64,000 nucleotides of DNA from Desulfobacula sp. (GTDB lineage: Bacteria; Desulfobacterota; Desulfobacteria; Desulfobacterales; Desulfobacteraceae), in assembly GCA_023701135.1 (NCBI GenBank), contig JAMPXP010000020.1, positions 1 to 64,000 on the forward strand, read 5' to 3'. Position numbers and translations under genes: made by a program. The notes under the pieces were generated by a model. That model was not told the DNA's origin. It worked only from the letters and a program-made list of their open reading frames with translations, and searched no databases. Within the stretch, counting starts at the first letter, position 1, and every line of letters starts with the position of its first letter. Shown one piece after another: positions 1,701-18,524 of the stretch.

Positions 1701-2816
1701 ATGGGAAATATTCCTGAAAAAATCTGGACTTGGCAGATGGTCAGCCCCAATAAAAAAGACAGGGAAACGGGGCAGGTGACTCCCGGCAAACTGGAGAAAA
1801 CACAGATTGACGTGCCTGAACTCAAGGCCGGAGAGGTTTTGGTTGAAGTGGCCGGTTGCGGGATCTGTCATACGGACCTGGGCTATTTTTATCAGGGAGT
1901 GCCCACGGTGAACAAGCCGCCGCTGACCCTGGGCCATGAAATATCCGGCAGGGTGGTGGCTGCCGCCGATGATGTTAAGGCATGGGACGGCAAAGAGGTC
2001 ATTATCCCGGCGGTGATGCCCTGCCGGAAATGCCATCTGTGCAAGACCGGCCGCGGCAACAGATGCCTGGATCAGAAAATGCCCGGAAACAGCATGGGCA
2101 TTTACGGCGGTTTTTCCAGCCATATCCCGGTTCCGGCCATTGACCTTTGCGAAGTTAAAAACCGCGGGACGATTCCCCTTGAAAAACTGGCCGTTGTCGC
2201 CGATGCCGCCACTACCCCGTTTCAGGCGGCAAAACGCGCCGATGTCCAGGTGGGGGACAATGTCATTGTCATCGGCGTGGGCGGTGTCGGCCAATACATG
2301 GTCCAGATCTTAAAAGCCCTTGGCTCGGGCACTGTTGTTGCCATTGATATCAACCAGGAGCGCCTGGATACCATGCTGAAGAACGGTGCGGACTTTGCGG
2401 TCAATTCCATGGGCAAGACCCCCAAGGAAATTTCAGAGATCCTCAAGGGCTATCGAAAAGAAAAGGGCCTGGCCTCCACGGGCTGGAAGATTTTTGAGGT
2501 TTCAGGAACAAAGCCGGGCCAGGAATTGGGCCTTTCCCTCCTGAGCTTCACCGGCAAAATGATTGTCGTGGGATTCGGCCCCCACCAGGTGGAATACTCC
2601 ATCTCACGGCTCATGGCCTTTGATGCGGAGCTGATCGGCACCTGGGGATGCCTGCCGGAATATTATCCGTCCGTATTGAGCATGATCACCAGTGGAAAAA
2701 TCAATTTTGAGGGTTTTGTCCAGACCCGACCCATGAGCACCATTGTCGAAAGTTTTGAAGAGGCCCATAAAAAATCGCCGGATCAGAGAATTGTCCTGAT
2801 ACCGGATTTTAACTGA
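1701..2816 (+). CDS. bamQ: 6-hydroxycyclohex-1-ene-1-carbonyl-CoA dehydrogenase
   Basis: Zinc-dependent medium-chain alcohol dehydrogenase of 371 residues that oxidises 6-hydroxycyclohex-1-ene-1-carbonyl-CoA to the 6-oxo compound with NAD+, the step before ring opening in the benzoyl-CoA pathway (Had in Thauera, BamQ in Geobacter). Visible are the catalytic zinc region CGICHTDLGYFYQG with GHE, the structural zinc cysteines CRKCHLCKTGRGNRC, and the Rossmann motif GVGGVGQ. AAAGGAG precedes the ATG. The call among many MDR dehydrogenases rests on two things: the hydrolase BamA two genes downstream, and the sequence looking like Had proteins. The hydratase producing its substrate is not in this window. 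Confidence 0.85.
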   Translation: MGNIPEKIWTWQMVSPNKKDRETGQVTPGKLEKTQIDVPELKAGEVLVEVAGCGICHTDLGYFYQGVPTVNKPPLTLGHEISGRVVAAADDVKAWDGKEVIIPAVMPCRKCHLCKTGRGNRCLDQKMPGNSMGIYGGFSSHIPVPAIDLCEVKNRGTIPLEKLAVVADAATTPFQAAKRADVQVGDNVIVIGVGGVGQYMVQILKALGSGTVVAIDINQERLDTMLKNGADFAVNSMGKTPKEISEILKGYRKEKGLASTGWKIFEVSGTKPGQELGLSLLSFTGKMIVVGFGPHQVEYSISRLMAFDAELIGTWGCLPEYYPSVLSMITSGKINFEGFVQTRPMSTIVESFEEAHKKSPDQRIVLIPDFN

Positions 2817-2845
2817 TTATTTTTGTTATTTAAGGAAACCGGATT

Positions 2846-3595
2846 ATGAAACTTGAAGGAAAAAAAGCAATTGTCACCGGCGGCAGCCGGGGCATTGGAA
2901 AAGCCATCGCCCTTTTATATGCAAAGGAAGGAGCCGATGTGCTGGTGAACTATCATTCCAATGACAAAGCCGCCAAAGAAACCGTGGCGGAAATTGAAAA
3001 GCTGGGACGGAAAGGCGTGGCCGTGGCCGCCGATGTAGCCGACTACAAGAGCGCCCAGAGCATGGTGGATGAATGCGTGAAACAGTTGGGCGGGGTGGAT
3101 ATCGTTGTGAACAATGCCGGTGTGTCCAGGCCCTCCCTGCTGCTTAAAATGACTGAAGAAGACTGGGATTATATCATTGACGTGCACCTGAAGGCGGCGT
3201 TCAACACCACCCAGGCGGCAGCCCGGTATATGAAGGAAAAAAAATACGGAAAGATCATCAACGTGATCTCCACGGCCGGCATTTTCGGAACCGTGGGCCA
3301 GATCAATTATGCATCGGCCAAGGCCGGGATCATCGGGTTCTCGAAATCCGCCTCCAGGGAGCTGGGCCGCTACAACATCAATGTGAACGTCATCTGTCCG
3401 GGCATCACCAAGACGGAAATGACCGGGAAACTCCAGTCCGATGAAAAACTGAGACAGATCTATGAAAGCCGGATCCAGCTCGGGCGGTTCGGAGAGCCTG
3501 AAGAAGTGGCCCCGGCCTTTGTATTCCTGGCCTCCGATGACGCCAGCTATATCACCGGGCAGGTCCTGGGCGTGGACGGCGGTTATGTCGGTTAA
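2846..3595 (+). CDS. short-chain dehydrogenase/reductase, FabG-like
   Basis: Classical SDR of 249 residues: cofactor motif TGGSRGIG near residue 10, NNAG near 90, and the catalytic Ser with YASAK near 155. It closes with the PG/E and YITGQVLGVDGG features of 3-oxoacyl reductases. It sits 29 bases after bamQ and 44 before bamA in an evident operon. In this context it most likely oxidises a 3-hydroxyacyl-CoA after ring opening (for example 3-hydroxypimelyl-CoA) or acts on an alicyclic CoA ester. The sequence alone supports only a generic NAD(P)-dependent 3-hydroxyacyl dehydrogenase. Confidence 0.8.
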   Translation: MKLEGKKAIVTGGSRGIGKAIALLYAKEGADVLVNYHSNDKAAKETVAEIEKLGRKGVAVAADVADYKSAQSMVDECVKQLGGVDIVVNNAGVSRPSLLLKMTEEDWDYIIDVHLKAAFNTTQAAARYMKEKKYGKIINVISTAGIFGTVGQINYASAKAGIIGFSKSASRELGRYNINVNVICPGITKTEMTGKLQSDEKLRQIYESRIQLGRFGEPEEVAPAFVFLASDDASYITGQVLGVDGGYVG

Positions 3596-3639
3596 ACAAA
3601 TCAATGAATAGACCATAAGTGTATTAAAAGGAGGATTAT

Positions 3640-4776
3640 ATGGCTTTAGAATGGATGCCGAGAGAAAATGAACCCAAGGATCACAGCCTGCACCGGAACC
3701 CCCACTGGGGAACGGAAGCGCCCTGTGTGATGTATGAAAAAAAACCGCTGACGGACCCCAAGGGCAATGTGGTGGACAAATTGTTCGTCGCATGGATCAC
3801 CCTCAACAACCCCAAACAGTTCAATTCCTATACCACGGATATGGTCAAAGGCGTTATTGCAGGGTTTGAAAATGCCTCCCTGGACAGGCAAGTGGTTGCC
3901 GTGGTCTTCACCGGCACCGGCCCCTATGCCTTCTGCACCGGCGGCAATACCAAGGAATACTCCGAGTTCTATTCAAAACGGTGTGACGAATACGGCCAGT
4001 ACATGGAGCTGTTCAACCACATGGTCGACGCCATCCTGGCCTGCAAAAAACCGGTCATCTGCCGCGTCAACGGCATGAGGGTGGCAGGCGGCCAGGAAAT
4101 CGGCCTGGCCTGCGATCTTGCCGTATCTTCAGACCTTGCCATCTTCGGCCAGGCAGGCCCCAAACACGGCTCGGCACCTGCCGGTGGATCTTCCGATTTC
4201 CTGCCCTGGTTCCTGACGGCGGAAAACGCCATGTACAACTGTGTATCCTGCGAAATGTGGTCCGCCTATAAAATGAAAGCCCTGGGAATGATCTCCAAGG
4301 TTGTGCCGGTATTGAAAGTGGACGGCAAATGGGTGCGGAATCCGACCATCATCACCGATACCTATGTTCAGGACGGAGAGATTGTCTACGGTGAATACAA
4401 GACCGGCGACGCCCTTAAGGAAGGCCGGGAATTCCTGAAAATCCACCAGGCCAATGCCGATTTCGAACTTCTGGACAAAGAAGTGCACACGATTATCTGG
4501 AAATTCGCCAACCTGTTCCCGGGCTGCCTGATCAAATCCATTGACGGCATCCGCCAGAAAAAGAAATTCTTCTGGGATACCATGAAAAACGACCACAGGC
4601 ATTGGCTGGCCGCCAATATGTCCGGCGAGGCCTTCCTTGGATTCGGCGCCTTCAATACCAAGAAGATCACGGGCCAGGATACGGTTGATTTCATCAAATT
4701 CCGCCAGAATGTGGCCGATTCCATGATGTGGAATGATGAGATGTTTGCATCCGTGATGGGCAAGCCCCAGAAATAA
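3640..4776 (+). CDS. bamA: 6-oxocyclohex-1-ene-1-carbonyl-CoA hydrolase (ring-opening)
   Basis: Crotonase-superfamily enzyme of 378 residues that adds water to 6-oxocyclohex-1-ene-1-carbonyl-CoA and cleaves the ring to give 3-hydroxypimelyl-CoA (Oah in Thauera, BamA in Geobacter and Syntrophus). Characteristic stretches include the N-terminal HSLHRNPHWGTEAPCVMYEK, CTGGNTKEYSEFYSKRCDEY in the oxyanion region, and VNGMRVAGGQEIGLACDLA. The protein is longer than ordinary enoyl-CoA hydratases (about 260), as expected for this family. AAAGGAGG precedes the ATG. bamA is the usual marker gene for anaerobic aromatic degradation, and identification is firm. A terminator follows at 4827. Confidence 0.95.
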   Translation: MALEWMPRENEPKDHSLHRNPHWGTEAPCVMYEKKPLTDPKGNVVDKLFVAWITLNNPKQFNSYTTDMVKGVIAGFENASLDRQVVAVVFTGTGPYAFCTGGNTKEYSEFYSKRCDEYGQYMELFNHMVDAILACKKPVICRVNGMRVAGGQEIGLACDLAVSSDLAIFGQAGPKHGSAPAGGSSDFLPWFLTAENAMYNCVSCEMWSAYKMKALGMISKVVPVLKVDGKWVRNPTIITDTYVQDGEIVYGEYKTGDALKEGREFLKIHQANADFELLDKEVHTIIWKFANLFPGCLIKSIDGIRQKKKFFWDTMKNDHRHWLAANMSGEAFLGFGAFNTKKITGQDTVDFIKFRQNVADSMMWNDEMFASVMGKPQK

Positions 4777-5057: not shown

Positions 5058-7058
5058 ATGAGGTACGCAGAGACAGGGTTTAATCTTGAAGTAGATTTAA
5101 GCCGAGGAAACATTGAAAAGGTCGCAACAGACCCGAGAGATACCGAACTTTATCTGGGGGGTCTGGGTACTAACGCCAAGATATTGTGGGACAGGGTTCC
5201 GCCCGAGGTCGAGCCGTTTTCTCCGGAAAACCTGCTGATTTTCGGCGCCGGCCTTTTGTGCGGCACGCCGGCCACTGGCTGCAACCGTACCATCGTATCC
5301 ACCATTTCACCCCAGACCAGGCTCATGGCCTTTTCCATGATGGGCGGATTCTGGGCCCCGGAATTAAAATACGCAGGCTATGACAAGGTCATCCTTCGCG
5401 GCAAATCCCCGAAACTGGTCTATCTGTGGATCAACAATGACACGGTGGAGATCCGGGATGCAGCCCATTTGAAAGGCAAGGGCGCCATTGAAACCGCTGA
5501 ACTCATCAAAAAAGAATTGAAACAGCCCAAGGCCCAGGTGGCGGCCATCGGCATGGCCGGTGAGAATAAGGTGTATTTTGCCTCCATTGAACAGGGCCGG
5601 TCCAGCGCCAGCCGCGGCGGCATCGGGGCCGTCATGGGAGATAAAAACATCAAAGCCGTTGTGGTTCGCGGCACAAAGGACATCAACCTGGCCCGGCCCG
5701 AAGAATTCCTGGGGCTGTGTAACGAGGTGCTGACCTATATCAAACACAGAGAAACCAACCCCATTCCCGGGGTGATGCCGATTCTGGCAGGACTCGGATC
5801 TCCCCAGGAGATGAAGGTCCATGATGAAAAATGGCATACGGAAAATTTCATGTGGGGAAATTCCCGGACCCGGAGAAAAGATTTCTGGAACGAGGACGTT
5901 GAAAAAGAATGGACCCAAACCCTGGAAGACTCAAGGACCCGGCTCATCAGTTGCTTTAACTGCCCCATGAAATGCGGGGCCACCATTTCGCTTCCGGGAC
6001 TGCCCACCTATATGATGAAATGTTTTACCAAGCTGACCTATACCATGGGGGCCTTTTCAAACCTGGAATTTGGACTCAGAATCGCGCAAAAGGCGACCGA
6101 ATACGGCCTGGACGGATTCTCCGCCCCCCAGGTTATGGCCTTTGCCCTGGAACTCCTGGAAAACGGGATTCTGAAAAAGGATGATTTCCAGGGGATGCCC
6201 GAAGACAATGAAGGCAGATTCTACTGGCTCCTGGACAGAATCGTCCGCCGGGAAGGCATCGGCAATATCCTGGCCAACGGCACCTACTGGGCGGCCCAGG
6301 AGATCGGGAACGGGGCTGAAGCTTACGCCCACAACAATATCAAAAAAATCGAGCAGCTGCCCTTGAAGCTGTCCATGCTGAATCCCATTTATTTTTTGAT
6401 GTATTGCACAGGTGAAAAGATCAATATCACCCAGATCGAGGGGCAATTCCCCCAGGCCGCCTTCCCGACACGGGAGGAAAGGGAGGAATTTGTCAAGGAT
6501 TGGATCCAGGTTCCGGATGAAAAATTCAAACAGTATTTTCTCGACTGGGAATTGCGCGGAGAAAATTCCATCCCCTTCTACCCCACCGTGGATATGTGCT
6601 GTGATATCGTGGACTGGCAGGAACAAATGCATTATATCGATGATGCCCTGGGTCAGTGCGCCGGGCTGTCCTCCTTTCCCCTGAAACCGCCTTACCACAT
6701 CCATAATTACCCGAAATTCATCTCTTCCGGGGCCGGCATCGATATGGATGAGGAAAAACTGACAAAGGCAGCCAAACGATACAGAACCCTTGTCAGGGCC
6801 GTCAATATCCGGCTCGGCATGAGAAGAAAAGATGAGGTTCCGCCCGAGGATCATTGGAAAAAAAGATTCCCCGAGCTGGAAGAAAAGCTCCTGGATGCCT
6901 ATTACCGGATGAAGGGCTGGAATAATGATGGTATTCCCACAAAGGAAAGCCTTCAGGACCTGGGCCTGGACTATGTGGCCAAAGAATTTGTGAAAAGAGG
7001 GATCTTGACCGAAAGTGGCGATGCTTCGGCACAACCAGAGACAGAGGGGAGGGCGTAG
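5058..7058 (+). CDS. bamB: class II benzoyl-CoA reductase, tungsten active-site subunit BamB
   Basis: Aldehyde ferredoxin oxidoreductase-family protein of 666 residues that reduces benzoyl-CoA to cyclohexa-1,5-diene-1-carbonyl-CoA without ATP. In the family the cofactor is tungsten bis-pyranopterin and one [4Fe-4S] cluster. The N-terminal AOR region (GLGTNAKILWDR, then STISPQ near 81, then GFWAPELKYAGYDKVILRG) is intact. The cluster ligands are seen as C299-x2-C302-x3-C306, with CC at 514-515 as candidate fourth ligand. BamC begins 3 bases after the stop, which agrees with the known tight BamBC pair. It leads an eight-gene operon. No in-frame UGA is present. Confidence 0.95.
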   Translation: MRYAETGFNLEVDLSRGNIEKVATDPRDTELYLGGLGTNAKILWDRVPPEVEPFSPENLLIFGAGLLCGTPATGCNRTIVSTISPQTRLMAFSMMGGFWAPELKYAGYDKVILRGKSPKLVYLWINNDTVEIRDAAHLKGKGAIETAELIKKELKQPKAQVAAIGMAGENKVYFASIEQGRSSASRGGIGAVMGDKNIKAVVVRGTKDINLARPEEFLGLCNEVLTYIKHRETNPIPGVMPILAGLGSPQEMKVHDEKWHTENFMWGNSRTRRKDFWNEDVEKEWTQTLEDSRTRLISCFNCPMKCGATISLPGLPTYMMKCFTKLTYTMGAFSNLEFGLRIAQKATEYGLDGFSAPQVMAFALELLENGILKKDDFQGMPEDNEGRFYWLLDRIVRREGIGNILANGTYWAAQEIGNGAEAYAHNNIKKIEQLPLKLSMLNPIYFLMYCTGEKINITQIEGQFPQAAFPTREEREEFVKDWIQVPDEKFKQYFLDWELRGENSIPFYPTVDMCCDIVDWQEQMHYIDDALGQCAGLSSFPLKPPYHIHNYPKFISSGAGIDMDEEKLTKAAKRYRTLVRAVNIRLGMRRKDEVPPEDHWKKRFPELEEKLLDAYYRMKGWNNDGIPTKESLQDLGLDYVAKEFVKRGILTESGDASAQPETEGRA

Positions 7059-7060
7059 CC

Positions 7061-7597
7061 ATGGGCGATAATAAGAAAACAAAAACAATCAAGACCATCA
7101 AAATAGACGTTGATAAATGCAATGGCTGCCGGGCCTGTGAGGTCATCTGTTCCGCCTTTCATGCAGCACCCCGTTACAGCAGCAATAATCCGGCCAGATC
7201 CCGCATCCGGATCCTCCGGGACCCCTTCCGGGATATCTATGTCCCGGTGTATGCCGGAGAATATACCGTGGCTGAATGCGCAGGCCGGGATAAATATACC
7301 ATAGACGGTAAAGAATATGATGAATGTTCTTTCTGCAGGGCTTCCTGTCCATCCCGGGATGAATTCAAGGAACCGGATTCCGGGCTTCCACTGAAATGTG
7401 ATATGTGCGAAGGCGAGGAAGAACCCCTGTGTGTCAAATGGTGTCTTGTGGATGCCTTGACCATTGAAGAAAGGGAAGAGGAAGTCGAAGACCGGAAAGA
7501 GCAGGAAGACCTGGAAATCGGCCTGGAATCCCTGGCAACCAAATTCGGCATGGACAAGATCATGGATGCCGTTGCCCGGCTGTCAAAAAAAGACTAG
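7061..7597 (+). CDS. bamC: ferredoxin-like electron transfer subunit BamC
   Basis: Polyferredoxin of 178 residues that carries electrons to BamB. Cysteine groups: CNGCRACEVIC near residue 20, CSFCRASCP near 90, and CDMCEGEEEPLCVKWC near 110, together consistent with several [4Fe-4S] clusters as in DMSO-reductase-type beta subunits. The C-terminal third is rich in Glu and Lys and lacks cysteine. The ribosome binding site (GGGGAGGG) lies inside the end of bamB, implying coupled translation. Confidence 0.9.
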   Translation: MGDNKKTKTIKTIKIDVDKCNGCRACEVICSAFHAAPRYSSNNPARSRIRILRDPFRDIYVPVYAGEYTVAECAGRDKYTIDGKEYDECSFCRASCPSRDEFKEPDSGLPLKCDMCEGEEEPLCVKWCLVDALTIEEREEEVEDRKEQEDLEIGLESLATKFGMDKIMDAVARLSKKD

Positions 7598-7654
7598 GCC
7601 TGAGGGTTGGAACAGTCAGGTAAAATATAAGGCCAATATATAAGGATAGACAAA

Positions 7655-8806
7655 TTGGAAACATTAGCCCCCTTCATAGAAGTCATAGATGAGATAAAAG
7701 CGTCCGGCGGAGAGATCTTCAAGATGTGTTTTCAGTGCGGACTGTGCGATTCGGTCTGCCCCTGGAACCGGGTGAGAAGCTTCAGCATGAGAAAGCTCAT
7801 CCGGGAAGCCGCCTTTGGGCTGAGTGAGGTTGAAGGAGAAGACATCTGGCGCTGCACCACCTGCGGCATGTGCCCCTCCCAGTGCCCCAGAGGCGTCAAA
7901 CAGATTGATATCAGCGTGGCTTTAAGACGCGTGGCCGCATCCTACGAATTGTTCCCGGCATCGGTCAAATCGGCCAGGACCGCCAGATCCAGCCTCATCT
8001 CCGAAGGCAACCCCTTGCAGGGAGAACGGGCCAAACGGGCCGACTGGGCCAAGGCCGTGTCGGTCAAACCCTATGCGGAAGGCATGGAAGCCCTCTATTT
8101 TGTGGGGTGTTATCTGAGCTATGACCCGAGGATGAAAAAAGTAGCCTTGGCCACGGCCAATATCCTTAAAAAAGCCGGGGTGGACTTCGGCATTCTGGGA
8201 GAAAAAGAAAACTGCTGCGGAGAAAGCATCCGGAAAACCGGCGCCGAAGAAACCTTTAAAAAGCTGGCCAAGGACAATATTAAAACCTTCATCGACCAGG
8301 GCGTCAAAAAGATCATTGTCTCATCCCCCCACTGTTACCATACCTTTAAAAACGAATACCCCGAATTCATGGTCCATTTTGATGTGGTCCACATCAACCA
8401 GTTCTTGATGCAGTTGATCCGGGAAGGCAGACTGACCCTCAAGGGTGAGCTGCCCAAAACCGTCACCTACCACGACCCCTGTTATCTGGGCCGGCACAAC
8501 GGGGTCTATGACGAACCCAGGGATGTCCTGCAAAGCATCTCCGGACTCACCCTCGTCGAAATGGAAAACCATCACAAAAACAGCCTGTGCTGCGGCGGCG
8601 GCGGAGGCCGGATCTGGATGGACACCCCACAGGAAGAACGGTTCTCAGACATCCGGCTCAAACAGGCAAGGGAAGCAGGGGCAGAGATCCTGGCCACCTC
8701 CTGCCCGTATTGCATCACCAATTTTGAAGAAAGCCGCCTGAACCTTGCCTATGAAAACATGATCGAGGTCAAAGACATCACCGAAATCATCAATGACCTG
8801 GTTTAA
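7655..8806 (+). CDS. bamD: HdrD-like Fe-S subunit BamD
   Basis: Protein of 383 residues with two N-terminal [4Fe-4S] motifs (CFQCGLCDSVCP near residue 25, CTTCGMCPSQCP near 68) and two CCG domains. Each CCG domain ends in a paired cysteine (ENCCGES near 187; LCCGGGGGR near 310), the hallmark of heterodisulfide reductase HdrB/HdrD catalytic subunits. In the proposed Bam complex it exchanges electrons with BamE. The start is TTG at 7655, with AAGGATAG upstream; no ATG fits better. It is soluble, with no membrane segment. Confidence 0.9.
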   Translation: METLAPFIEVIDEIKASGGEIFKMCFQCGLCDSVCPWNRVRSFSMRKLIREAAFGLSEVEGEDIWRCTTCGMCPSQCPRGVKQIDISVALRRVAASYELFPASVKSARTARSSLISEGNPLQGERAKRADWAKAVSVKPYAEGMEALYFVGCYLSYDPRMKKVALATANILKKAGVDFGILGEKENCCGESIRKTGAEETFKKLAKDNIKTFIDQGVKKIIVSSPHCYHTFKNEYPEFMVHFDVVHINQFLMQLIREGRLTLKGELPKTVTYHDPCYLGRHNGVYDEPRDVLQSISGLTLVEMENHHKNSLCCGGGGGRIWMDTPQEERFSDIRLKQAREAGAEILATSCPYCITNFEESRLNLAYENMIEVKDITEIINDLV

Positions 8807-8861: not shown

Positions 8862-11800
8862 GTGGAAAACGAAGTATTGCCGACGGAAATCATACAACAG
8901 TTTGCAACGGGCCTTGGCGACAAGAATTTTGGCGACGTGCTCATCGTGGGCGGGGGTGTCAGCGGCATCCAGGCCTCCCTGGACCTTGCCACAGCCGGAT
9001 TCAAGGTCTACCTGGTGGAAAAGGGACCCAGCATCGGCGGGCATATGTCCCAGCTCGACAAGACCTTCCCCACCAACGACTGCTCGATGTGAATTCTCTC
9101 TCCTAAACTGGTCGAGGTCGGCCGGCATCCAAACATCGAAGTTTTGACATTTACGGAAGTAGAGAGAGTCGAAGGGGAAAAAGGAAATTTCAGTGTCACC
9201 CTTAAAACCAGACCCCGGTATATTATCGAGGACCGTTGCACAGGCTGCACCACCTGCGTCAAATACTGCCCCGTCCAATACCCGGACCGGTTCAACCAGG
9301 AAATATCCATGAACAAGGCCGTCCATGTCTATTTCTCCCAGGCCATTCCTCTGGTGGCTTATATCGACGACAGTTGCCTGTTCTTAAAGGAAGGCAAATG
9401 CGATATCTGCCGGGGCGTATGCAAAATGGACGCCATTGACTTCAAACAGACCCCCAAAAAGGTGGATATCAATGTGGGCGCCATTATTCTGTCTGCCGGC
9501 ATCACCCCCTTTGACCCCTCGGTCAAGGAAGAATACCGGTACAGGGAATATGAAAACGTCGTCACCAGCATGGACTATGAACGGCTCCTGTCCTCCACCG
9601 GCCCCTATGAGGGCAAGGTCCTAAGAAAAACTGATAAAAAACATCCCAAAAAGATTGCCTGGATCCAATGTGTCGGCTCAAGACGGGTCACCCCCGGGGA
9701 CAACAGCTATTGCTCCGGCGTCTGCTGCACCTATACCCAGAAACAGGTCATTTTGACCAAAGACCATGACACCGAAGCCGAATGCACCATCTTCCACAAC
9801 GATATCCGGTCCTTCGGTAAAGACTTTGAACGGTATTTTCAAAGAGCCTCGGCTTACCCAGGCGTCGAATTCATCAGATCCTATGCCGCCGTCACCAAAG
9901 AAATCCCGGGCTCCAAAAACGTCGTGGTCCGATACGCCACCCCCGATGAAGGCGTCAAAGAAAAAGAATTTGACATGGTGGTCCTGTCTGTTGGATTAAA
10001 TCCGCCGGCCGCCTATAAAGAAATCTCGGAAAAATTCGGCATTGATCTCAACTCCCACGGCTTTGCCAAAACAGACTCCTCCAACCCCATCAAGACCAAC
10101 AGACCCGGCATCTTTGTCAGCGGCGCCTTCCAGGGCCCCACAGACATCCCGGAATCCGTGTTCACCGCCTGCGGGGCCGGGTCCCAGACCGGGGAACTGT
10201 TGGATTACCGGAGGGGCAAACTCAGCACCCAGAGGGTTTATCCGGATGAACGGGACGTCTCCCAAGAAGAACCCAGGATCGGCGTCTTTGTCTGCCATTG
10301 CGGGGCCAATATCTCCAGCGTCGTCAATGTGCCCTCAACCGTCGAATACGCCCTGACCCTGCCGAACGTCGTCTATGCCAAACAGCAGATCTTTTCCTGC
10401 GCCACCAACTCGGCCAAAGAAATCACGGATCTGGCTAGGGAAAAGGGCCTCAACCGCGTGGTCATTGCCGCCTGCTCGCCCAGAACCCTGGAACCCCTGT
10501 TCCGGGATACCTTAAGAGAAGCCGGCCTCAACCAGTATTACCTCGACATGGCCAATATCCGGGAACACTGCTCCTGGGTCCATTCCAAACAAAAGGAAGA
10601 AGCCACCCAGAAAGCCCAGGACATCGTCCGCATGTCAGTGGCCCGGGCCTCGCGCCTGGAACCCCTCCAGGAATTTGATCTGCCCGTCAACAAAACCGCC
10701 CTGGTTGTCGGTGGCGGCATTGCCGGCATGACCTGCGCCCTGTCCATAGCCAGACAGGGCCATGAAGTCCATATCGTGGAAAAGGCTAAGGATCTCGGCG
10801 GCATGGCCCGACGCCTTCACACCACCCTGGAAGGCCTGGATGTCCAGACCTATCTGGACAAACTCATCCAAAAGATCTATCAGAACCCCCTCATCCACGT
10901 GTCCCATGAAGCGACCATTAAAAATGTGGAAGGGTATCTGGGCAATTTTACCACCACCATCGAAACCGAAGGCCGCATCAAAGAGATCAAACACGGGGCC
11001 TCGGTCCTGGCCATCGGGGCCGAAGAATACAAACCCACGGAATACCTCTACGGCCAGAATGAAAACGTCTTCACCCACATGGAACTGGGGCAGGAGATCG
11101 CCAAGGGCAACGAAACCGTCCTCAACGCCGAAACTCTCGTCATGATCCAGTGCGTGGGCTGCAGAAACGAAGACCGGAATTACTGCTCCAGGGTCTGCTG
11201 CGGCCATGCCGTCAAAAACGCCCTTAAACTCAAAAAACACAACCCGGACATGAGGATCTATATCCTGTTTCGGGACATGAGAACCTATGGGTTCAGGGAA
11301 GACGCCTACCGGGAAGCCTCGGAAAACGACGTCAAATTCATCCGGTATGAGCCCGAAGACAAACCCTTGGTGGAAGCGGTCAAAGAAGGCAAAAAGACCG
11401 TCCTTCGCGTCACCGTTCCCGATTATATCCTGGGCAAACGCCTGGAACTGGACGCCGATGTCCTGTCCCTGGCCGCCGCCGTTATTCCTTCGGAGTCCAC
11501 CAAGGAGATTGCCGGCCTCTTCAAGGTCACCCTGAGCCCCGACGGATATTTCAAGGAAGCCCATGTCAAACTCAAACCCGTGGAATTTGCCACGGACGGG
11601 GTCTTCCTCTGCGGCACGGCCCATTATCCCAAACATGTGCCCGAGACCATCAACCAGGCCTATGGGGCCGCAGGCAGGGTTCTCACCCTTTTGTCCCGAG
11701 ACACGGTGACGGCCTCGGGCTCCGTGGCCAAGGTCACGGAATATGACTGCGTCTCCTGCGGGGCCTGCATCACGGCTTGCACCTACCAGGCCATTGAATT

Positions 11801-11999
11801 TGTGGACACGCCCAAGGGCAAAAAGGCCTGGGTCAACCCGATTCTCTGCAAGGGGGACGGGCTCTGCAATGCCAAATGCCCGACCAATGCCATCGTCCTG
11901 AAACATTTTACCAACGATGCCCTGCTCGGCCAGATTGATGCGGCCTCTTCGGCCGAAGAGATTATGGCGGAAATGGATGCAGTTCTGGAAGAGGTATAA
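8862..11999 (+). CDS. bamE: HdrA-like flavoprotein BamE, selenoprotein (Sec77)
   Basis: One 1045-residue gene interrupted by an in-frame UGA at 9090-9092. Residues 72-76 read NDCSM before the UGA and [15 protein letters not shown] after it; HdrA proteins normally have Cys at this place, so the UGA is read as selenocysteine 77. A hairpin with GGUC in its loop follows at 9108. The frame is the same on both sides and protein similarity runs through, which excludes a frameshift. Domains: FAD motif VGGGVSG near 30; Fe-[13 protein letters not shown] near 126; CDICRGVC near 180; a second HdrA-like half with FAD motif VVGGGIAG near 615; C-terminal ferredoxin ([11 protein letters not shown] near 963, [12 protein letters not shown] near 1005). 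The duplicated layout agrees with BamE of other obligate anaerobes. Inferred role: FAD-based branching of electrons between BamD/F/GHI and BamBC. Confidence 0.93.
9108..9125 (+). promoter_or_regulatory. bacterial SECIS-like hairpin in bamE
   Basis: CTGGUC (9108-9113) pairs with GGCCGG (9120-9125), counting G-U pairs, around the loop GAGGUC. The loop contains GGUC, as in the E. coli fdhF SECIS. The stem begins 16 bases after the UGA, in the range SelB uses. It also encodes residues of BamE, as bacterial SECIS elements must. Confidence 0.7.
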
Positions 12000-12028: not shown

Positions 12029-12802
12029 ATGAGTGCTGCTCTTGAATTTAAACCCCGGATACTGGGCTTTGTATGCCATTGGTGAGCATACGGTGCTGCG
12101 GATCTGGCTGGAGTTTCCAGACTACAATATACCAACGAGATCAGACTCATCCGGGTCATGTGTTCCGGAAGAGTGGATATCGAGTTTATCCTCAGGGCCT
12201 TTGCAGGCGGACAGGACGGAGTCTTTATCGGCGGATGCAAACTGGATGAATGCAATTATGTCACCCATGGGAATTATGATGCCTTGAGCAATACATATCT
12301 GACTAAAAAAATACTGAAGCACCTGGGCATCAACCCGGACCGGCTCAGGATCGAATTTATGTCTGGAGCCGACGGGCAACTGTTGGCCGAAAAGACCGAT
12401 GAATTTACCCATCAGATCAAAAGCCTGGGTCCCCTTGGCTCCAGTGAAGGACTGAAAAAAGAAGAGGTGACATTCAACCTGGAGGCGGCCCGAAAACTGG
12501 TGCCCTTTATGCGGCTGGTGGAAAGAGAACGGCTCCGGGTTCCGGTCAAATCCAAAAAAGCCTATAAGGACTTTTTTGAATCCGAAGAAACCAATGCCCT
12601 GTTTGACAAGATATTTTCAGAAAAATTGGCCGTCAGCCGGATCATCCGTCTTTTAAAGACAGCCCCGCTGTCCACGGGCGCCATTGCCGAAAAGCTGGGA
12701 CTTAAGCCCTCGGATGTATCCAGGCATATGATCAGTTCCAGCCGCCACGGCATGGTGAGATATGATACGGCCGGCAAATGCTATACCCTGGTTCAGGCAT
12801 GA
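12029..12802 (+). CDS. bamF: MvhD-like subunit BamF, selenoprotein (Sec19)
   Basis: 257-residue protein whose start is ATG 12029 (AAAGGAGG upstream), with an in-frame UGA at 12083-12085. Around it the product reads GFVCHW-U-AYGAADLAG, which matches the N-terminal CxxC motif of the methyl-viologen hydrogenase delta subunit (MvhD) with the second Cys replaced by Sec19. The rest of the iron-sulfur domain follows: MCSGRVD near 44, GCKLDEC near 72. Starting only at the later ATG (12158) would remove the first cluster ligands. The C-terminal 60 residues (STGAIAEKLGLKPSDVSRHM) look like a winged-helix fold. In the Bam complex it would link BamE to the NuoEFG-like BamGHI, as MvhD links HdrA to hydrogenase. 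Confidence 0.92.
12103..12121 (+). promoter_or_regulatory. candidate SECIS hairpin in bamF
   Basis: UCUGG (12103-12107) pairs with CCAGA (12117-12121). An alternative inner stem, CUGGA/UCCAG (12108-12112 with 12116-12120), has GUU in the loop. The hairpin lies 17 or more bases after the UGA. It is less canonical than the bamE element, and which fold is used is uncertain. Confidence 0.5.
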
Positions 12803-12818
12803 GAAAGGAAAGCGTTCT

Positions 12819-13271
12819 ATGGAAATTGAAACAATAGACCGGATTATCGACAAGCATCATTGCGAGGCCAGCAACCTCTTGCAGATCATGCTGGAAATCC
12901 AAAGCAGCAACAACTGGCTTCCCAAGGAGGCCCTGAAAAGGGTGAGTGAACGGCTAAAGGTCCCCATGACCCGGATCCAGCATATTGCCACCTTTTACAA
13001 AGCCTTTTCCCTGGTCCCCAAGGGCCGGCACAAGGTCCATATATGCGTGGGAACCGCCTGCCACGTCAGGGGGGCCACCCGCATCCTGGACACGGTGGAA
13101 GAAGCCACGGGCATCAAACCCGGAGAAACGGACCTGGACATGAAATTCAGCCTGGAAACCGTCAACTGTCTGGGCTGCTGCGCCCTGGGCCCGGTCATGG
13201 AAGTGGATGGAAAAGTCCATGGCAAGATGTCGCCGGTCAAGACGGCGGAAGCCTTAAAAACTTATGAGTAG
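12819..13271 (+). CDS. bamG: NuoE-like [2Fe-2S] subunit BamG
   Basis: NADH:quinone oxidoreductase 24-kDa-type subunit of 150 residues. The thioredoxin-like [2Fe-2S] ligands are seen as CVGTAC near residue 72 and CLGCC near 114. The N-terminal helical part (WLPKEALKRVSERL, IATFYKAF) is typical of NuoE. ATG 12819 with GAAAGGAAAG upstream is chosen over an earlier in-frame start at 12762, which would overlap bamF. It is predicted to pair with BamH in electron input from NADH or output to NAD+. Confidence 0.9.
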   Translation: MEIETIDRIIDKHHCEASNLLQIMLEIQSSNNWLPKEALKRVSERLKVPMTRIQHIATFYKAFSLVPKGRHKVHICVGTACHVRGATRILDTVEEATGIKPGETDLDMKFSLETVNCLGCCALGPVMEVDGKVHGKMSPVKTAEALKTYE

Positions 13272-13280
13272 GGGAATATT

Positions 13281-15212
13281 ATGGCGCGGTTAAATACGCC
13301 TGAAGCACTGCAAACCTTCAGACAAGAGCTGTTATCCAAGAAAGATCCGAACAATACCTGCGTATCCATCTGCGCCGGAGCCGGTTGCGTGGCCTCCGGA
13401 GCCGATGAGGTCATTGAGGCCTTTAAAAAAGAAATCGAACAACGGGGCCTGTCCGCCACTGTAGAAACCAAGGGCACCGGATGTCCGGGATTCTGCGAGC
13501 GGGGCCCGGTGGTGGTCATCTACCCGGAAGAAATCTGCTACCTCCAGGTCCAGGCCCAGGATGTGCCCGAGATCATCGAAGAGACCATCAAAAATAAAAA
13601 GGTCATTGAGCGCCTTTTGTTCCAGGACCCGGCCACGGGAGAAAGGGCTGTCACGGAATCGGACATCTCCTTTTACAAAAGCCAGCAGAGAACGGTCCTG
13701 TGCAACAATATCAAGGTGGACTCCAAAAGCATAGACGACTATATCTCCATCGGCGGCTACACGGCCCTGGGCAAGGCCCTGGGCAGCATGACGGACCTGG
13801 ACGTCCTGGGCGAAGTCAAAAAAGCCAATCTAAGGGGCAGAGGCGGGGCCGGGTTCCCGGCCGGAGTTAAATGGGAAGGCTCCCGCAACGCCCCGGAACC
13901 CATCAAATACGTCATTGTCAACGCCGACGAAGGAGACCCCGGCGCCTTCATGGACCGGGCCCTTTTGGAAGGCAACCCCCACGCTATTTTAGAGGGATTG
14001 ATCATCGGCGGGTATGCCGTCAAAGCCAATGAAGGCTATTTTTATGTCCGGCAGGAGTATCCCCTGGCCGTCATCAATATCCAGCATGCCATCAAACAGG
14101 CCGAAGCCTATGGCCTTCTGGGCGAGAACATCCTGGGCTCGGGATTTAATTTCAAGGTCCATGTGCACCAGGGAGCCGGCGCCTTTGTCTGCGGAGAATC
14201 CACGGCCCTCATGGCCTCCCTGGAAGGAAAAGCCGGGGAACCCCGGCCCAAATATGTCCGGTCCAATGTCAAAGGCCTCTGGGAACGACCATCGGTCCTC
14301 AACAACGTCGAGACCTGGGCCAATGTGCCCCTGATCATCAATAACGGGGCCGACTGGTTCACCTCCATCGGCACCGAATCCAGCAAGGGCACCAAGATCT
14401 TCTCCCTGGTGGGCAAGATCACCAATACCGGCCTGGTGGAAGTGCCCATGGGCATGACCTTGAAAGAAATCATCCATACCATCGGCGGCGGCATCCCCGG
14501 GGGCAAGAAATTCAAGGCCGTCCAGACCGGCGGGCCCTCCGGCGGCTGCATCCCGGAACACCTTCTGGACCTGAAAGTCGGGTTTGACGAACTGACCCAG
14601 GCCGGTTCCATGATGGGCTCCGGGGGCATGATCGTCATGGATGAAGACACCTGCATGGTGGACGTGGCCAGGTATTTCATCAATTTTCTCACCGAAGAAT
14701 CCTGCGGCAAATGCGTGCCCTGCCGGGAAGGCCTGCGCCAGATGCACCGTATCCTGACCAATATCACCCAGGGCAAGGGCCGGGAAGGGGACATCGAACT
14801 CCTGGAAGAACTCTCGGAAACCGCCGTGGAAGCCTCCCTGTGTGCTCTGGGCAAAAGCGCGCCCAACCCCTTTTTGTCCACCCTCAAATACTTCCGCGGG
14901 GAATACGAGGCCCACATCAAGGAAAAACGCTGCCCGGCCCTGTCCTGCAAGGAAATGATCTCCTTTTACATTGACCCGGAAAAATGCATGGCCTGCGGCA
15001 TGTGCAAAAAGCAATGCCCGGCCTCGGCCGTCAACGGAGACAAAAAGATCATCCACATCATTGACCAGGACAAATGCACCCGTTGCGGCACCTGCTTTGA
15101 AGTCTGCCCGGCCAAGTTCGGCGCCGTGACCAAGCTCTCGGGCGTGCCGGTCCCACCGCCCCTGCCCGAAGACCAAAGAACGATTAAAAAAAAGAGCAAA
15201 GAAAATGATTGA
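13281..15212 (+). CDS. bamH: NuoF-like flavoprotein BamH (NADH-binding)
   Basis: 643-residue fusion. Residues 1-120 form a thioredoxin-like [2Fe-2S] domain (CAGAGC, CPGFCERG). Next is the NuoF core with the FMN/NADH-binding stretch LRGRGGAGFPAGVKW, NADEGDPGAFMDR, and the [4Fe-4S] motif ESCGKCVPCREG near 475. Last is a C-terminal two-cluster ferredoxin (CMACGMCKKQCP, CTRCGTCFEVCP). The same architecture occurs in NAD-linked bifurcating hydrogenases and formate dehydrogenases. It gives the Bam complex a likely NAD(H) site, which fits proposals that endergonic benzoyl-CoA reduction is driven by flavin-based bifurcation. It overlaps bamI by 8 bases. Confidence 0.92.
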   Translation: MARLNTPEALQTFRQELLSKKDPNNTCVSICAGAGCVASGADEVIEAFKKEIEQRGLSATVETKGTGCPGFCERGPVVVIYPEEICYLQVQAQDVPEIIEETIKNKKVIERLLFQDPATGERAVTESDISFYKSQQRTVLCNNIKVDSKSIDDYISIGGYTALGKALGSMTDLDVLGEVKKANLRGRGGAGFPAGVKWEGSRNAPEPIKYVIVNADEGDPGAFMDRALLEGNPHAILEGLIIGGYAVKANEGYFYVRQEYPLAVINIQHAIKQAEAYGLLGENILGSGFNFKVHVHQGAGAFVCGESTALMASLEGKAGEPRPKYVRSNVKGLWERPSVLNNVETWANVPLIINNGADWFTSIGTESSKGTKIFSLVGKITNTGLVEVPMGMTLKEIIHTIGGGIPGGKKFKAVQTGGPSGGCIPEHLLDLKVGFDELTQAGSMMGSGGMIVMDEDTCMVDVARYFINFLTEESCGKCVPCREGLRQMHRILTNITQGKGREGDIELLEELSETAVEASLCALGKSAPNPFLSTLKYFRGEYEAHIKEKRCPALSCKEMISFYIDPEKCMACGMCKKQCPASAVNGDKKIIHIIDQDKCTRCGTCFEVCPAKFGAVTKLSGVPVPPPLPEDQRTIKKKSKEND

Positions 15213-15801
15213 ATTTGAAATAGACGGCAAAAAGGTAAGTGCATCCAAAGACATGACGGTCCTGGAAGTGGCCCAAAAAGAAGGCATCCATATCCCCACC
15301 CTGTGCCACCACGAGAAACTGGAACCCTTCGGGGGCTGCCGGATCTGCATCGTGGAAGTGGAATCCAGGGGCTGGACCAAGCTGGTGGTGTCCTGCGTCT
15401 ATCCTGCCGAAAAGAACATCATCGTCCGGACCCGTTCCCCCAAGGTGGACCGTATCCGCAAAACCATCATCGAACTGCTCATGGCCCATGCCCCGGACTC
15501 GCCCCAGCTCCTGGACTTGGCCGCCGTATACGGAGCCGTCCCCAACCGCTACGAAAAGGACCCCTCGTTCTGCATCCACTGCGGCCTCTGCGTCCGTTAC
15601 TGCGCCGAAGTGGCACAGAAAAACGCCCTGGGCTTTGTGGACCGGGGCGTCCACAAAGAGATCAGCTTTATCCCGGAGATCGCAGCAAAGGAATGCCATG
15701 CCTGTAAGGAATGCTTCCCCCTGTGCCCGACCTCCTATCTCCAGGCCGTGTTTGTCCTGACCGAGGCCCTTGCGTTCCCTGACCCGGCAGTGAAGCACTA
15801 G
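15205..15801 (+). CDS. bamI: NuoG-N-terminal-like Fe-S subunit BamI
   Basis: 198-residue protein with an N-terminal plant-type [2Fe-2S] domain (CHHEKLEPFGGCRIC near residues 33-48 and a later C at about 63). It is followed by two [4Fe-4S] motifs, CIHCGLCVRYC near 122 and CHACKECFPLCP near 165. It corresponds to the electron-wire part of NuoG without the molybdopterin domain. Its start overlaps the end of bamH, so the two are translationally coupled. Last gene of the bamB-I set. Confidence 0.88.
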   Translation: MIEFEIDGKKVSASKDMTVLEVAQKEGIHIPTLCHHEKLEPFGGCRICIVEVESRGWTKLVVSCVYPAEKNIIVRTRSPKVDRIRKTIIELLMAHAPDSPQLLDLAAVYGAVPNRYEKDPSFCIHCGLCVRYCAEVAQKNALGFVDRGVHKEISFIPEIAAKECHACKECFPLCPTSYLQAVFVLTEALAFPDPAVKH

Positions 15802-15860: not shown

Positions 15861-16697
15861 TTGAATCCAGGACCTAATACCAAAACATATCCGGTGATCC
15901 GGTTTGAAAAAGGGGAATTTACCGGGGACTCACTGGAGCTGATCGGTGAGGAACCCCTCATGATCCGGGTGGATGACAAGTCCTATTCCGTGGTCATGCG
16001 GACCTCGGGGGAAGAGGAGGCCCATGCCCTGGGCCTCTGTCTTGGAGAAGGGATCATTGATTCCCCTGAAGACCTGGCCGGCATCGGGTATGACCGGGAT
16101 ATCGACCCCAATCTCATTGATATCTGGCTGACGCCGGAACGCCGCAAACGGATTCCGAACCTTCTCAAACGCAGAACCTATGTCAGCCAGACCAGTTGCG
16201 GCATCTGCGGAAAAAAAATGATGGAGGATCTGAACCAGGTACTCAGGCCTGCGGACCATGGCTTTGAAATCGAAATTCATAAAATTTTTGAATGCCTGAA
16301 AAAGCTGTCTGAAAAACAAAATTTTTACCCCCGCACCCGGGGGTCCCATGCCGCCCTGCTCTTTGATGATCAACTGGAGGTCGTGTCCTTTTCCGAGGAT
16401 GTGGGGCGGCATAATGCCCTGGATAAAGCCATTGGAAATTTGTTCATGAAAAAAACCCTGAACACGGCAAGGCTCCTTGTCTTATCGTCCAGAATCAGTT
16501 ATGAACTGGTTCAGAAGGCGGCAAGGGCAAGGCTGCCCATGATCATCAGCAAATCAAGACCCACGGCCCTGGCCGTTGACATGGGAAAATCCCTGAACAT
16601 GACCCTTGCATGTGCCTTTGAATCCAAAAACCTGATCATTTTCAGCGGAGAAGCCCGCATCAAAAGGGAAGGGACCGGGGCAAAATTGACTGTTTAG
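15861..16697 (+). CDS. fdhD: FdhD-family molybdenum/tungsten enzyme sulfurtransferase
   Basis: 278-residue FdhD homologue; FdhD transfers sulfur from a cysteine desulfurase to the bis-pyranopterin metal site of formate dehydrogenases. The conserved segments are here: EEPLMIRVDDKSYSVVMRTSG at the N-terminus, TSCGICGKK near residue 115 carrying the two sulfur-relay cysteines, and FSEDVGRHNALDKAIG near 175. The start is TTG 15861; later ATGs would cut into the conserved N-terminus. No formate dehydrogenase lies in this window, and the gene stands directly after bamI. I infer that it may sulfurate the tungsten cofactor of BamB, which is not established for the family. Confidence 0.9.
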   Translation: MNPGPNTKTYPVIRFEKGEFTGDSLELIGEEPLMIRVDDKSYSVVMRTSGEEEAHALGLCLGEGIIDSPEDLAGIGYDRDIDPNLIDIWLTPERRKRIPNLLKRRTYVSQTSCGICGKKMMEDLNQVLRPADHGFEIEIHKIFECLKKLSEKQNFYPRTRGSHAALLFDDQLEVVSFSEDVGRHNALDKAIGNLFMKKTLNTARLLVLSSRISYELVQKAARARLPMIISKSRPTALAVDMGKSLNMTLACAFESKNLIIFSGEARIKREGTGAKLTV

Positions 16698-16737
16698 AAA
16701 AATGACCGAACCTAAATAAAATTATGAGGAGGACAAT

Positions 16738-17520
16738 TTGAAGATTCTCACAACCGTAAAAAAAGTAGTTGATGTGGAATTGAATATCCACGTTAAGGAT
16801 GGGGCCATTGTGGAAGACGGGCTTCAGTATGTGATCAATGCCTGGGATGAAAACGCTGTGGAAGCCGCGGTCCAGCTTAAGGAAAAAAACAATGCCGAAA
16901 CCACTCTGGTGAGTCTCGGCGGTGGCGACAATGCCGACATTATCCGCAAATGCTATGCCATGGGCATTGACGAGGGGATCCATGTGGATGACCCGGCCCT
17001 GGCCAAGGCCGATTCATCTGTTTATGCCAATGTCCTGAAAAAAGTCGTTGAAAAGGGCGGTTATGACCTTGTGATTACAGGGAAGCAGGCCCAGGATACG
17101 GACAGCGGGCAGACCGGCATCATGCTGGCCGAAGCCTTGGGATACCCTTGTGTCAGCAATGTGGTGTCCATTGATGTCCTGGATGATACCCATATCAAAG
17201 TGTCCCGTCTCGGGGACAGCGGAACCGAAATCATCGAACTGGCCCTTCCGGGGGTTATCACCGTCAGTGACAGCATTAATGAACCCCGGCTCCCGGCCAT
17301 GCGCGGGATCATGATGGCCAAGAAAAAGAAAATCGATTCCATGGACCTGGCCGGTCTTGGAATTTCAGGGGCTGAAGCCGGATGTGATGCCTTAAAATCC
17401 GAGGTGGTTGAATTTATGGCATCCAAAACACGAAAGGCCGGACGCAAATTTGAAGGCGATGCCGCAAAAATTACGGCTGAAGTCGTGGGTCTTCTGGCTA
17501 CCGAAGCAAAGGTTTTCTAA
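16738..17520 (+). CDS. etfB: electron transfer flavoprotein, beta subunit
   Basis: 260-residue EtfB with the usual N-terminal adenylate/FAD-binding fold (KILTTVKKVVDVE, NAWDENAVEAAVQLKE) and the signature region AKKKKIDSMDL near residue 200. It starts with TTG at 16738, with GAGGAGG at 16726-16732 as a strong ribosome binding site. With EtfA it accepts electrons from acyl-CoA dehydrogenases, here presumably those acting on pimelyl/glutaryl-CoA products of the benzoyl-CoA route. The partner dehydrogenases are not in the window. Confidence 0.93.
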   Translation: MKILTTVKKVVDVELNIHVKDGAIVEDGLQYVINAWDENAVEAAVQLKEKNNAETTLVSLGGGDNADIIRKCYAMGIDEGIHVDDPALAKADSSVYANVLKKVVEKGGYDLVITGKQAQDTDSGQTGIMLAEALGYPCVSNVVSIDVLDDTHIKVSRLGDSGTEIIELALPGVITVSDSINEPRLPAMRGIMMAKKKKIDSMDLAGLGISGAEAGCDALKSEVVEFMASKTRKAGRKFEGDAAKITAEVVGLLATEAKVF

Positions 17521-17552
17521 CACTAACGGATTCTTGGAAGGAAAAATATATT

Positions 17553-18512
17553 ATGGCTAAAGTACTTGTAATTGCAGATATCAAACAGGGCGTACTCAAA
17601 GGCAGTACCTTGGAACTTTTATCAAAGGCCAGAGCCATGGGTGCAGAAACGGCGGTCGTGGCCATCGGTAACAATATTTCGTCTCTGGCGGCAGATCTGG
17701 CCAAGGCCGGTTCCGACACCCAGTATATTGCGGACGATGCCGGCCTTGACCTCTTTTCCGCAGGTCCCTATGCTTCCTGTGTGGTGGATGCGGCCAAACA
17801 GTCCAATGCCGATATGATCTGGTTTGGTTTTTCCGAAGGCGGCAAGGCCGTCGCCCCCAGGGTAGCGGCCCAGCTCGGAGCCGCCTGCGCCACGGAAATC
17901 ACCGATGTCACCCTGACCGGCAGCGGCATTGAAATCGTCCGTCCGGCCATTGCCAATAAAGTCATGCAGCGCGTGAAAGTGAACACCAAACAACTGGTGG
18001 CCGTTGTCCGGGCCGGGGCCTTCCAGGCCGTGGAAGGCAATACGGGGAAAGAAAATGTGGTCAAACTCGCCATTCCGTCAGCAGATTTAAAAGCCGTGAT
18101 CAAGGAAATCGTTTCCGATGCCACGGGTGAGATTGATCTGGCCGATGCCGATATTGTCGTATCCGTGGGCCGCGGTGCCAAGGACCAGGCCGGGGTCAAT
18201 CTGGTCAAAGAACTGGCCAATGATCTGAAAGCCGGGTTCGGGTCGTCCCGGGCCATGGTGGATGGCGGTTTCATGGCTCATAACAAGCAGGTCGGGCAGA
18301 CCGGAAAAATCGTGGCCCCCACCCTTTATATGGCCATGGGCATCTCCGGCGCCATCCAGCACCTGGCCGGCATGAACGGGTCCAAGGTCATCCTGGCCGT
18401 GAACAAAGATCCTGAAGCCCCGATTTTCAACGTGGCGGACTATGGCATTGTCGGCGACCTGTTTGAAGTGGTGCCGATACTTCGTGAAGAACTTAAAAAA
18501 ATCAGAAAATAG
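17553..18512 (+). CDS. etfA: electron transfer flavoprotein, alpha subunit
   Basis: 319-residue EtfA. The C-terminal FAD domain is complete ([58 protein letters not shown]). It lies 32 bases after etfB and 12 before the membrane oxidoreductase gene, so the three form an electron-transfer operon. Confidence 0.95.
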
Positions 18513-18524
18513 GAAGAGGTCCTG

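Follow-up and report, generated by a model that had tools for sequence, protein, structure and literature searches.

The window, by which we mean the whole stretch of 64,000 nucleotides that was analysed, belongs to a draft genome of 4.8 Mb in 42 contigs (98.87% complete), where it is contig 42. It carries genes in the order bamBCDEFGHI, in which bamE lies between bamD and bamF, and this order is shared by related loci (Table 1). As subunits, BamE and BamF transfer electrons in a reaction that lies close to the redox limit of biology, and on the basis of gene order and profile similarity bamE is assigned here as the predicted BamE subunit of a class II benzoyl-CoA reductase. The profiles matched by bamB, bamC and bamD, all below their cut-offs, are aldehyde ferredoxin oxidoreductase-like, Fe–S-like and CCG/HdrD-like, and the bamG–bamI region has NuoE and NuoF matches below cut-off together with a 2Fe–2S domain. 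Further on, after bamI, come genes for an FdhD-like protein, two ETF subunits and a CCG-domain protein (15861–20633).

Table 1. Positions of genes and predicted features in the window
Feature	Position	Strand	Description	Evidence or basis
Had	1701–2816	+	benzoyl-CoA pathway	TIGR03201/TIGR03200 above cut-off for the Had/Oah region, 1701–4776
Oah	3640–4776	+	benzoyl-CoA pathway	TIGR03201/TIGR03200 above cut-off for Had/Oah
bamB	5058–7058	+	in region 5058–8806; putative start	named by gene order
bamC	7061–7597	+	in region 5058–8806; putative start	named by gene order
bamD	7655–8806	+	in region 5058–8806; putative start	named by gene order
bamE	8862–11999	+	1045-residue HdrA-like FAD/Fe–S subunit	read as a single gene through UGA77
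UGA codon 77 of bamE	9090–9092	+	predicted Sec, CxxU motif (Cys74, Sec77)	TGA/Cys alternation among homologues
Predicted SECIS stem-loop	9108–9125	+	7 bp, AGGU loop	codon conservation, pairing, compensatory variants
Codon 86 of bamE	9117–9119	+	GTC, Val; first two bases in SECIS loop	Val/Cys contrast
bamF	12029–12802	+	FlpD/MvhD-like subunit, second UGA gene of the operon	FlpD 153.7 bits
UGA codon 19 of bamF	12083–12085	+	CHWU	TGA in partners of Sec-BamE
bamG	12762–13271	+	in region 12762–15801	named by gene order
bamH	13281–15212	+	in region 12762–15801	named by gene order
bamI	15205–15801	+	in region 12762–15801	named by gene order

The bamE frame opens with GTG and closes with TAA, and codon 77 is its sole in-frame TGA. 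The original prediction was that this is one selenoprotein gene, in which the UGA replaces a conserved HdrA Cys, and that gene callers would split it into a 76-residue piece and a 951-residue protein. This account agrees with what was found: under table 11 a 951-aa ORF starting at TTG 9144 is called, so a standard gene caller would split bamE, and the whole frame stays open if TGA counts as a residue. The similarity that had been described as continuous across the UGA is indeed so, as PDB chains of HdrA can be aligned gap-free from about residue 27 through residue 77, where they have Cys; counted along the alignment, residue 77 corresponds to Cys197 of the methanogen HdrA 5odc. Overall, the reading of bamE as one selenoprotein gene is favoured by the frame, the UGA/Cys alternation among relatives, a constrained hairpin and the presence of Sec-decoding genes.

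The domains of BamE are Pfam FAD/Rossmann and 4Fe–4S (Fer4) domains. HdrA profiles match it strongly yet below their cut-offs (HdrA2, NF040770, 922.4 vs 1100 bits), and we describe it as HdrA-like and do not file it as HdrA2. Its closest named relative among the matches listed is 97% identical and comes from a Desulfobacula metagenome assembly. The in-frame TGA of bamF was left out of the original prediction; the codons that follow it are conserved, and the fold of the single sequence is not significant (z 0.25).

UGA and Cys at residue 77 of BamE relatives

Homologous loci came from a scan of genome contigs (71 loci) and from searches of the order (146 genomes), the phylum (297 genomes) and the phylum to which a Desulfosporosinus genome belongs (299 genomes), each search giving its best matches, up to 30 loci, and all counts are among the matches listed. 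The BamE family was defined by at least 57% identity to the window's BamE, with the window's own gene counted in. Its genes were deduplicated by identical DNA around the site only, so near relatives remain among the 198 unique genes. At codon 77, 171 of these 198 have TGA and 27 have Cys (20 TGC, 7 TGT) among the matches listed, with no third state in this set, and the expected alternation of Cys and Sec in the alignment is therefore complete. Outside the 198, a same-genus search gave five later loci (two more Sec-BamE and three more Cys-BamE), and locus L323 is one further Cys-BamE.

Two early readings were dropped. All of the unique genes seen at first had Sec (89/89), and the idea that BamE is strictly a Sec protein was given up once the phylum search showed Cys forms. 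An explanation of the Cys forms by lost Sec decoding was discarded as well, as 25 of the 26 genomes checked have a SelB over cut-off; three genomes (G347, G389 and G165) have Cys-BamE with Cys-BamF and SelB over cut-off all the same. At least 15 genomes among the matches listed carry both a Sec-BamE and a Cys-BamE, and such genomes are a natural experiment on the contribution of selenium to HdrA-type chemistry.

If UGA77 were a real stop, the products would be a peptide of 76 residues and a 951-residue protein of its own, the split that table 11 annotation yields. This reading is nevertheless extremely unlikely: the same frame, UGA and hairpin recur in many genes among the matches listed (171/198, with 170 rows for the hairpin), and the first fragment would hold the Rossmann GGGxxG while the remaining HdrA-like domain would be in the second. 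A sequencing or assembly error in this 42-contig draft can be practically dismissed, as the same codon stands in 170 other unique genes among the matches listed and no support for an error was found.

The UGA77 hairpin and its decoding

The genome of the window has selA, selB, selC and selD, the four genes to be expected if UGA is decoded as Sec, each over its cut-off: tRNA-Sec reaches 76.8 bits (gathering score 47), SelB 352.9 (cut-off 242), SelA 612.9 (268) and SelD 369.8 (125). The tRNA-Sec ends in G73-CCA. Two further loci of this genome may be recorded here, namely the selD gene itself (L038, G000:C39:8198–9124), which has one in-frame TGA and is likely a selenoprotein SelD, and an HdrA-like gene (G000:C18:110074–113302) that was matched in three pieces (L015, L017 and L021) and is perhaps frameshifted or broken.

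The putative SECIS hairpin, CUGGUCG-AGGU-CGGCCGG, spans codons 83–88 (LVEVGR). Its first base is the 16th nucleotide past UGA77, as originally predicted, but the loop is AGGU and not the GGUC that had been proposed. Folding, one of the checks suggested for it, lends no weight to the hairpin, which is unremarkable by energy (z −0.20; 74 of 200 shuffles fold equally well or better), and an Rfam search gave no SECIS match for it. As neither energy folding nor Rfam supported the hairpins, comparative tests were used instead.

By these tests the predicted hairpin is under strong constraint in Sec-BamE. Across 170 Sec rows, codons 83, 84, 85, 87 and 86 take ranks 1–5 among 501 conserved degenerate columns and codon 88 takes rank 7, and the median share of the most common codon elsewhere in Sec-BamE rows is 0.57. 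Only eight distinct 18-mers occur at the hairpin in these rows (0.047 per row), compared with 0.27 per row in the least diverse of 984 other windows, and one identical 18-mer is found in 151 of the 170 although 4608 synonymous encodings are possible. The loop is invariant in all 170 rows among the matches listed, and all seven stem pairs are kept in 168 and six of seven in the other two. Where the stem does vary, two compensatory double changes are seen, G–C to C–G with Glu85 to Gln and C–G to A–U with Leu83 to Met (two rows each), along with one-sided changes that keep the pair, U–G to U–A with Gly87 to Asp (13 rows) and U–G to C–G with Val84 to Ala (one row). The Cys-BamE rows, by comparison, have 26 different 18-mers in 27 rows, and the loop is absent from these relatives; L281 is the sole row of the 27 in which all seven pairs are possible, with a different loop. 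Beyond BamE, the Sec-HdrA rows L009, L010, L172 and L257 are identical to bamE over the 18 nt of the hairpin, and the distant Sec-HdrA L235 has another 18-mer with another loop sequence. A stem-loop just 3′ of the UGA with G in the loop, as is looked for in bacterial selenoprotein genes, is thus indicated by comparison. The SECIS element of Escherichia coli fdhF is likewise an in-frame hairpin soon after the UGA, with GGU in its loop, and it differs from the bamE hairpin in sequence and length.

A very unlikely reading, although one with precedent in the same order, is that UGA77 is decoded as Cys by a selC*-type tRNA-Cys, through SelB or a second SelB, a system known from some delta-proteobacteria. 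Such a tRNA-Cys(UCA) and a second selB are described in Desulfobacterales in passages of PMC7609411, the title of a cited paper reports that a tRNA of this type recodes a Sec UGA with Cys, and both elements, a selC*-type tRNA(UCA) and an additional SelB-type gene, occur in a genome that is probably that of Desulfococcus multivorans (G010). Against this, only one SelB and one tRNA-Sec (G73) lie over cut-off in the window's genome, the six lower-scoring tRNA-Sec hits there belong to tRNAs for Ser, Arg and Leu, and the selC* pattern has no match in this draft, whose completeness of 98.87% leaves room for a missing selC* piece; neither a selC*-type tRNA-Cys(UCA) nor a second SelB was found in it.

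We conclude from these comparisons that UGA77 is almost certainly read as Sec by SelB and Sec-tRNASec under the direction of the in-frame AGGU stem-loop. In the mechanism that we propose, the stem-loop, beginning at the 16th nucleotide downstream, would bring SelB with Sec-tRNASec to UGA77 and translation would pass this codon in vivo. Sec77 and Cys74 of the CxxU motif would then form a redox pair near the FAD, which may relay electrons between BamF and the flavin. The loop takes up two bases of codon 86, so the Sec form would be obliged to carry Val86.

Residue 86 and the exchange of Sec and Cys forms

Among the matches listed, residue 86 is Val in all 168 readable Sec-BamE (three of the 171 are too near an end for this residue) and Cys in all 27 Cys-BamE, which also have Glu79 (27/27) and Phe83 (26/27). 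Since codon 86 gives two of the loop bases, the loop could not persist with a Cys codon at this position, and this may be what keeps Sec77 and Cys86 from occurring together. It thus seems that the SECIS loop fixes Val86 in the Sec form and that the site switches between Sec and Cys as a block.

A different cause for this trade-off, though not for Sec decoding as such, is that the state of residue 86 depends on that of residue 77 through the protein itself, Cys77 needing Cys86 as a partner and Sec77 not, with no part for the SECIS. We consider this quite possible, though the less probable explanation. It draws on a distant comparison set of 31 rows below 57% identity (one of them, L231, bam-linked), in which Cys86 accompanies Cys77 in 17 of 25 non-BamE rows, and on the position of Glu79, which belongs to the Cys block and falls outside the hairpin. 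The six distant Sec rows have Val86 in five cases and Ala86 in one, and the latter, L235, lacks Cys86 although its loop is different, so loop and absence of Cys86 are not strictly tied. It also counts against the trade-off that Cys86 is absent from 8 of the 25 distant Cys77 rows and that the aligned methanogen HdrA chains have Cys77 together with Val at 86, so that Cys86 is not always tied to Cys77. The protein-based cause, for its part, has to contend with the RNA: with Cys encoded at 86, two loop bases would be replaced that never vary in the 170 rows, and in these rows residues 83, 84, 85 and 87 vary only where the pair is kept. If the SECIS loop does fix residue 86, this would be a clear case of an RNA signal within a gene constraining the protein, and the exchange of Sec and Cys would be a multi-residue step. 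We found no description of this coupling in open-licence papers, with queries that were not aimed at residue 86 as such.

How often the exchange took place depends on the tree. In a FastTree tree of 188 rows, from which column 77 alone was left out, the Cys-BamE are scattered over several places, whereas a mixture-model tree that omits residues 65–100 and has 58 rows (26 with Cys, 28 Sec rows taken out of 132, and four others) places the 26 Cys-BamE in one clade within Sec-BamE. Two Sec-BamE, L229 and L230, fall inside this clade in the latter tree, and a Cys clade without them is rejected by the AU test (p 0.0013) for a group that was chosen after the tree had been seen. When each of these two proteins was compared in 26 windows of 40 residues, it was nearer to the Cys-BamE L174 than to the Sec-BamE encoded in the same genome in 20 windows, with a tie in two and the reverse in four. 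At the DNA level, in window 81–120, both match the Sec copy of their own genome better (83 vs 72% and 80 vs 65%). In both genes the block around the site looks Sec-type and most of the remainder is closer to the Cys-type gene, a pattern compatible with a short replacement, perhaps by gene conversion; repeated gains of Cys around a retained Sec form could produce it instead. Changes within BamE are estimated at two to three. Given the disagreement between the two trees the number of Sec/Cys switches is uncertain, and the reading of a block swap draws on few events.

BamF, selC*-type loci and known selenoproteins

The state of BamE is mirrored in part by that of BamF. Where both codons are readable at Sec-BamE loci among the matches listed, BamF is the Sec form in 148 of 148 (23 more are cut off), and at the Cys-BamE loci listed it is the Cys form in 13 and the Sec form in 12, with two cut off. 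On the tree this link comes down to three or four independent pairs, too few to reach significance, and two Sec-HdrA genes of the window's genome (L009 on contig 18 and L010 on contig 3) each lie beside a Cys-type FlpD, so that the rule fails outside BamE. We found no description of the BamE/BamF pattern in open-licence papers. For Geobacter metallireducens, passages of PMC1794560 list an FrhD-type selenoprotein and no HdrA, and this species would fit the class with Cys-BamE and Sec-BamF if the listed FrhD is BamF. Two genomes of the same genus as the window (G739 and G740, loci L289 and L291) have additional bam clusters with Cys-BamE and Sec-BamF; the BamB of these clusters is 51–55% identical to that of the window, and they perhaps serve another aryl-CoA.

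Some relatives of the Cys form lie beside unusual tRNA genes. In G382 a tRNA with GCA anticodon exceeds the tRNA-Sec threshold (49.1 vs 47 bits), and this selC*-type tRNA-Cys(GCA) is followed in a row by a second selB-type gene, a Cys-BamE-like gene and a Cys-BamF-like gene (L173:534–6598). The same arrangement, extended by selD and two HGD-D genes, is seen in G771 (L323:8402–18011), a genome found through the 60% similarity of its SelB to that of L173. L167 has the selC*-type tRNA alone, L324 has it next to a Cys-type HdrA, and the tRNAs of L173, L167 and L323 resemble the selC* tRNA-Cys that, with a second selB, is described in passages of PMC7609411; all three have U73. In the probable D. 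multivorans genome the corresponding locus is L362 (G010:C1:1703000–1720000), which has the selC*-type tRNA(UCA) and the second SelB-type gene, so that the UGA codons of that genome could in principle receive Cys.

A search with the selC* pattern gave a match in 30 of 395 genomes (loci L326–L355; the wider set is L356–L382, L167, L173 and L324), none in the reversed control and none in the window's genome, and ARAGORN finds a long tRNA (89–97 nt) at 29 of the 30 loci, the exception being L366. Several of the 30 loci are on short contigs; 18 have a SelB-type gene, 12 an FlpD-like gene, nine a weak HGD-D match, five an HdrA/BamE-like gene or piece and three selD. The SelB-type genes are 60–70% identical to that of L323 in four cases and 32–47% in the others, which for most is no more than an ordinary SelB would show. 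An FlpD-like gene lies within 1.5 kb of the SelB at 8 of 18 selC* loci (7 of 17 without L173, the locus that prompted the count) and near none of 29 other SelB genes, these being drawn mostly from one order. It is possible that FlpD-like genes are targets of the selC* system; the relevant passages of PMC7609411 name no targets for it. A wider proposal, which we consider unlikely, is that the chalcogen residue of the HdrA/FlpD CxxU/C motif comes from two SelB-type systems that work in parallel, one using UGA and the AGGU hairpin for Sec and the other a selC* tRNA-Cys with its own SelB. The loci behind it have tRNA and SelB (L173 and L323) or the tRNA alone (L167 and L324), sometimes with selD. 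Were it true, the Cys-type forms there would depend on a dedicated elongation factor, and possibly even selenium would be carried at a Cys codon.

Sec in BamE is of a known kind, and the gene in the window is a correct and useful re-annotation, with the practical consequence that standard calling splits bamE. No description was found in open-licence papers of the comparative result, a Sec site and its RNA signal that seem to constrain and switch the protein. Selenium dependence of benzoyl-CoA metabolism in D. multivorans is cited in PMC13119186, and BamE (dmul_C24500/10) was among five Sec genes predicted for this organism in 2016 (PMC5109826). The BamE of D. multivorans DSM 2059 is the same gene, with a UGA and a predicted downstream SECIS, in another species, and the passages of PMC5109826 that treat it give neither an alignment of the site nor a comparison with Cys-BamE; the probable D. 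multivorans copy (G010, L126/L203) is 75% identical to the window's BamE and has TGA at codon 77. More widely, HdrA is listed as a CxxU selenoprotein family in PMC13188914, Sec operons of HdrA and FrhD are described in PMC1794560 and a Sec-HdrA of Desulfobacterium autotrophicum in PMC2702500. BamF and the MvhD/FrhD selenoproteins are like bamE in that a UGA gene is found in the same operon, and unlike it in belonging to the FlpD family, as a separate gene with its own downstream sequence. With the bacterial and archaeal HdrA selenoproteins (NF040770 in PMC13188914; PMC1794560) BamE shares the CxxU motif at the same site, and it differs from them as a subunit of the bam operon that scores below the HdrA2 cut-off.
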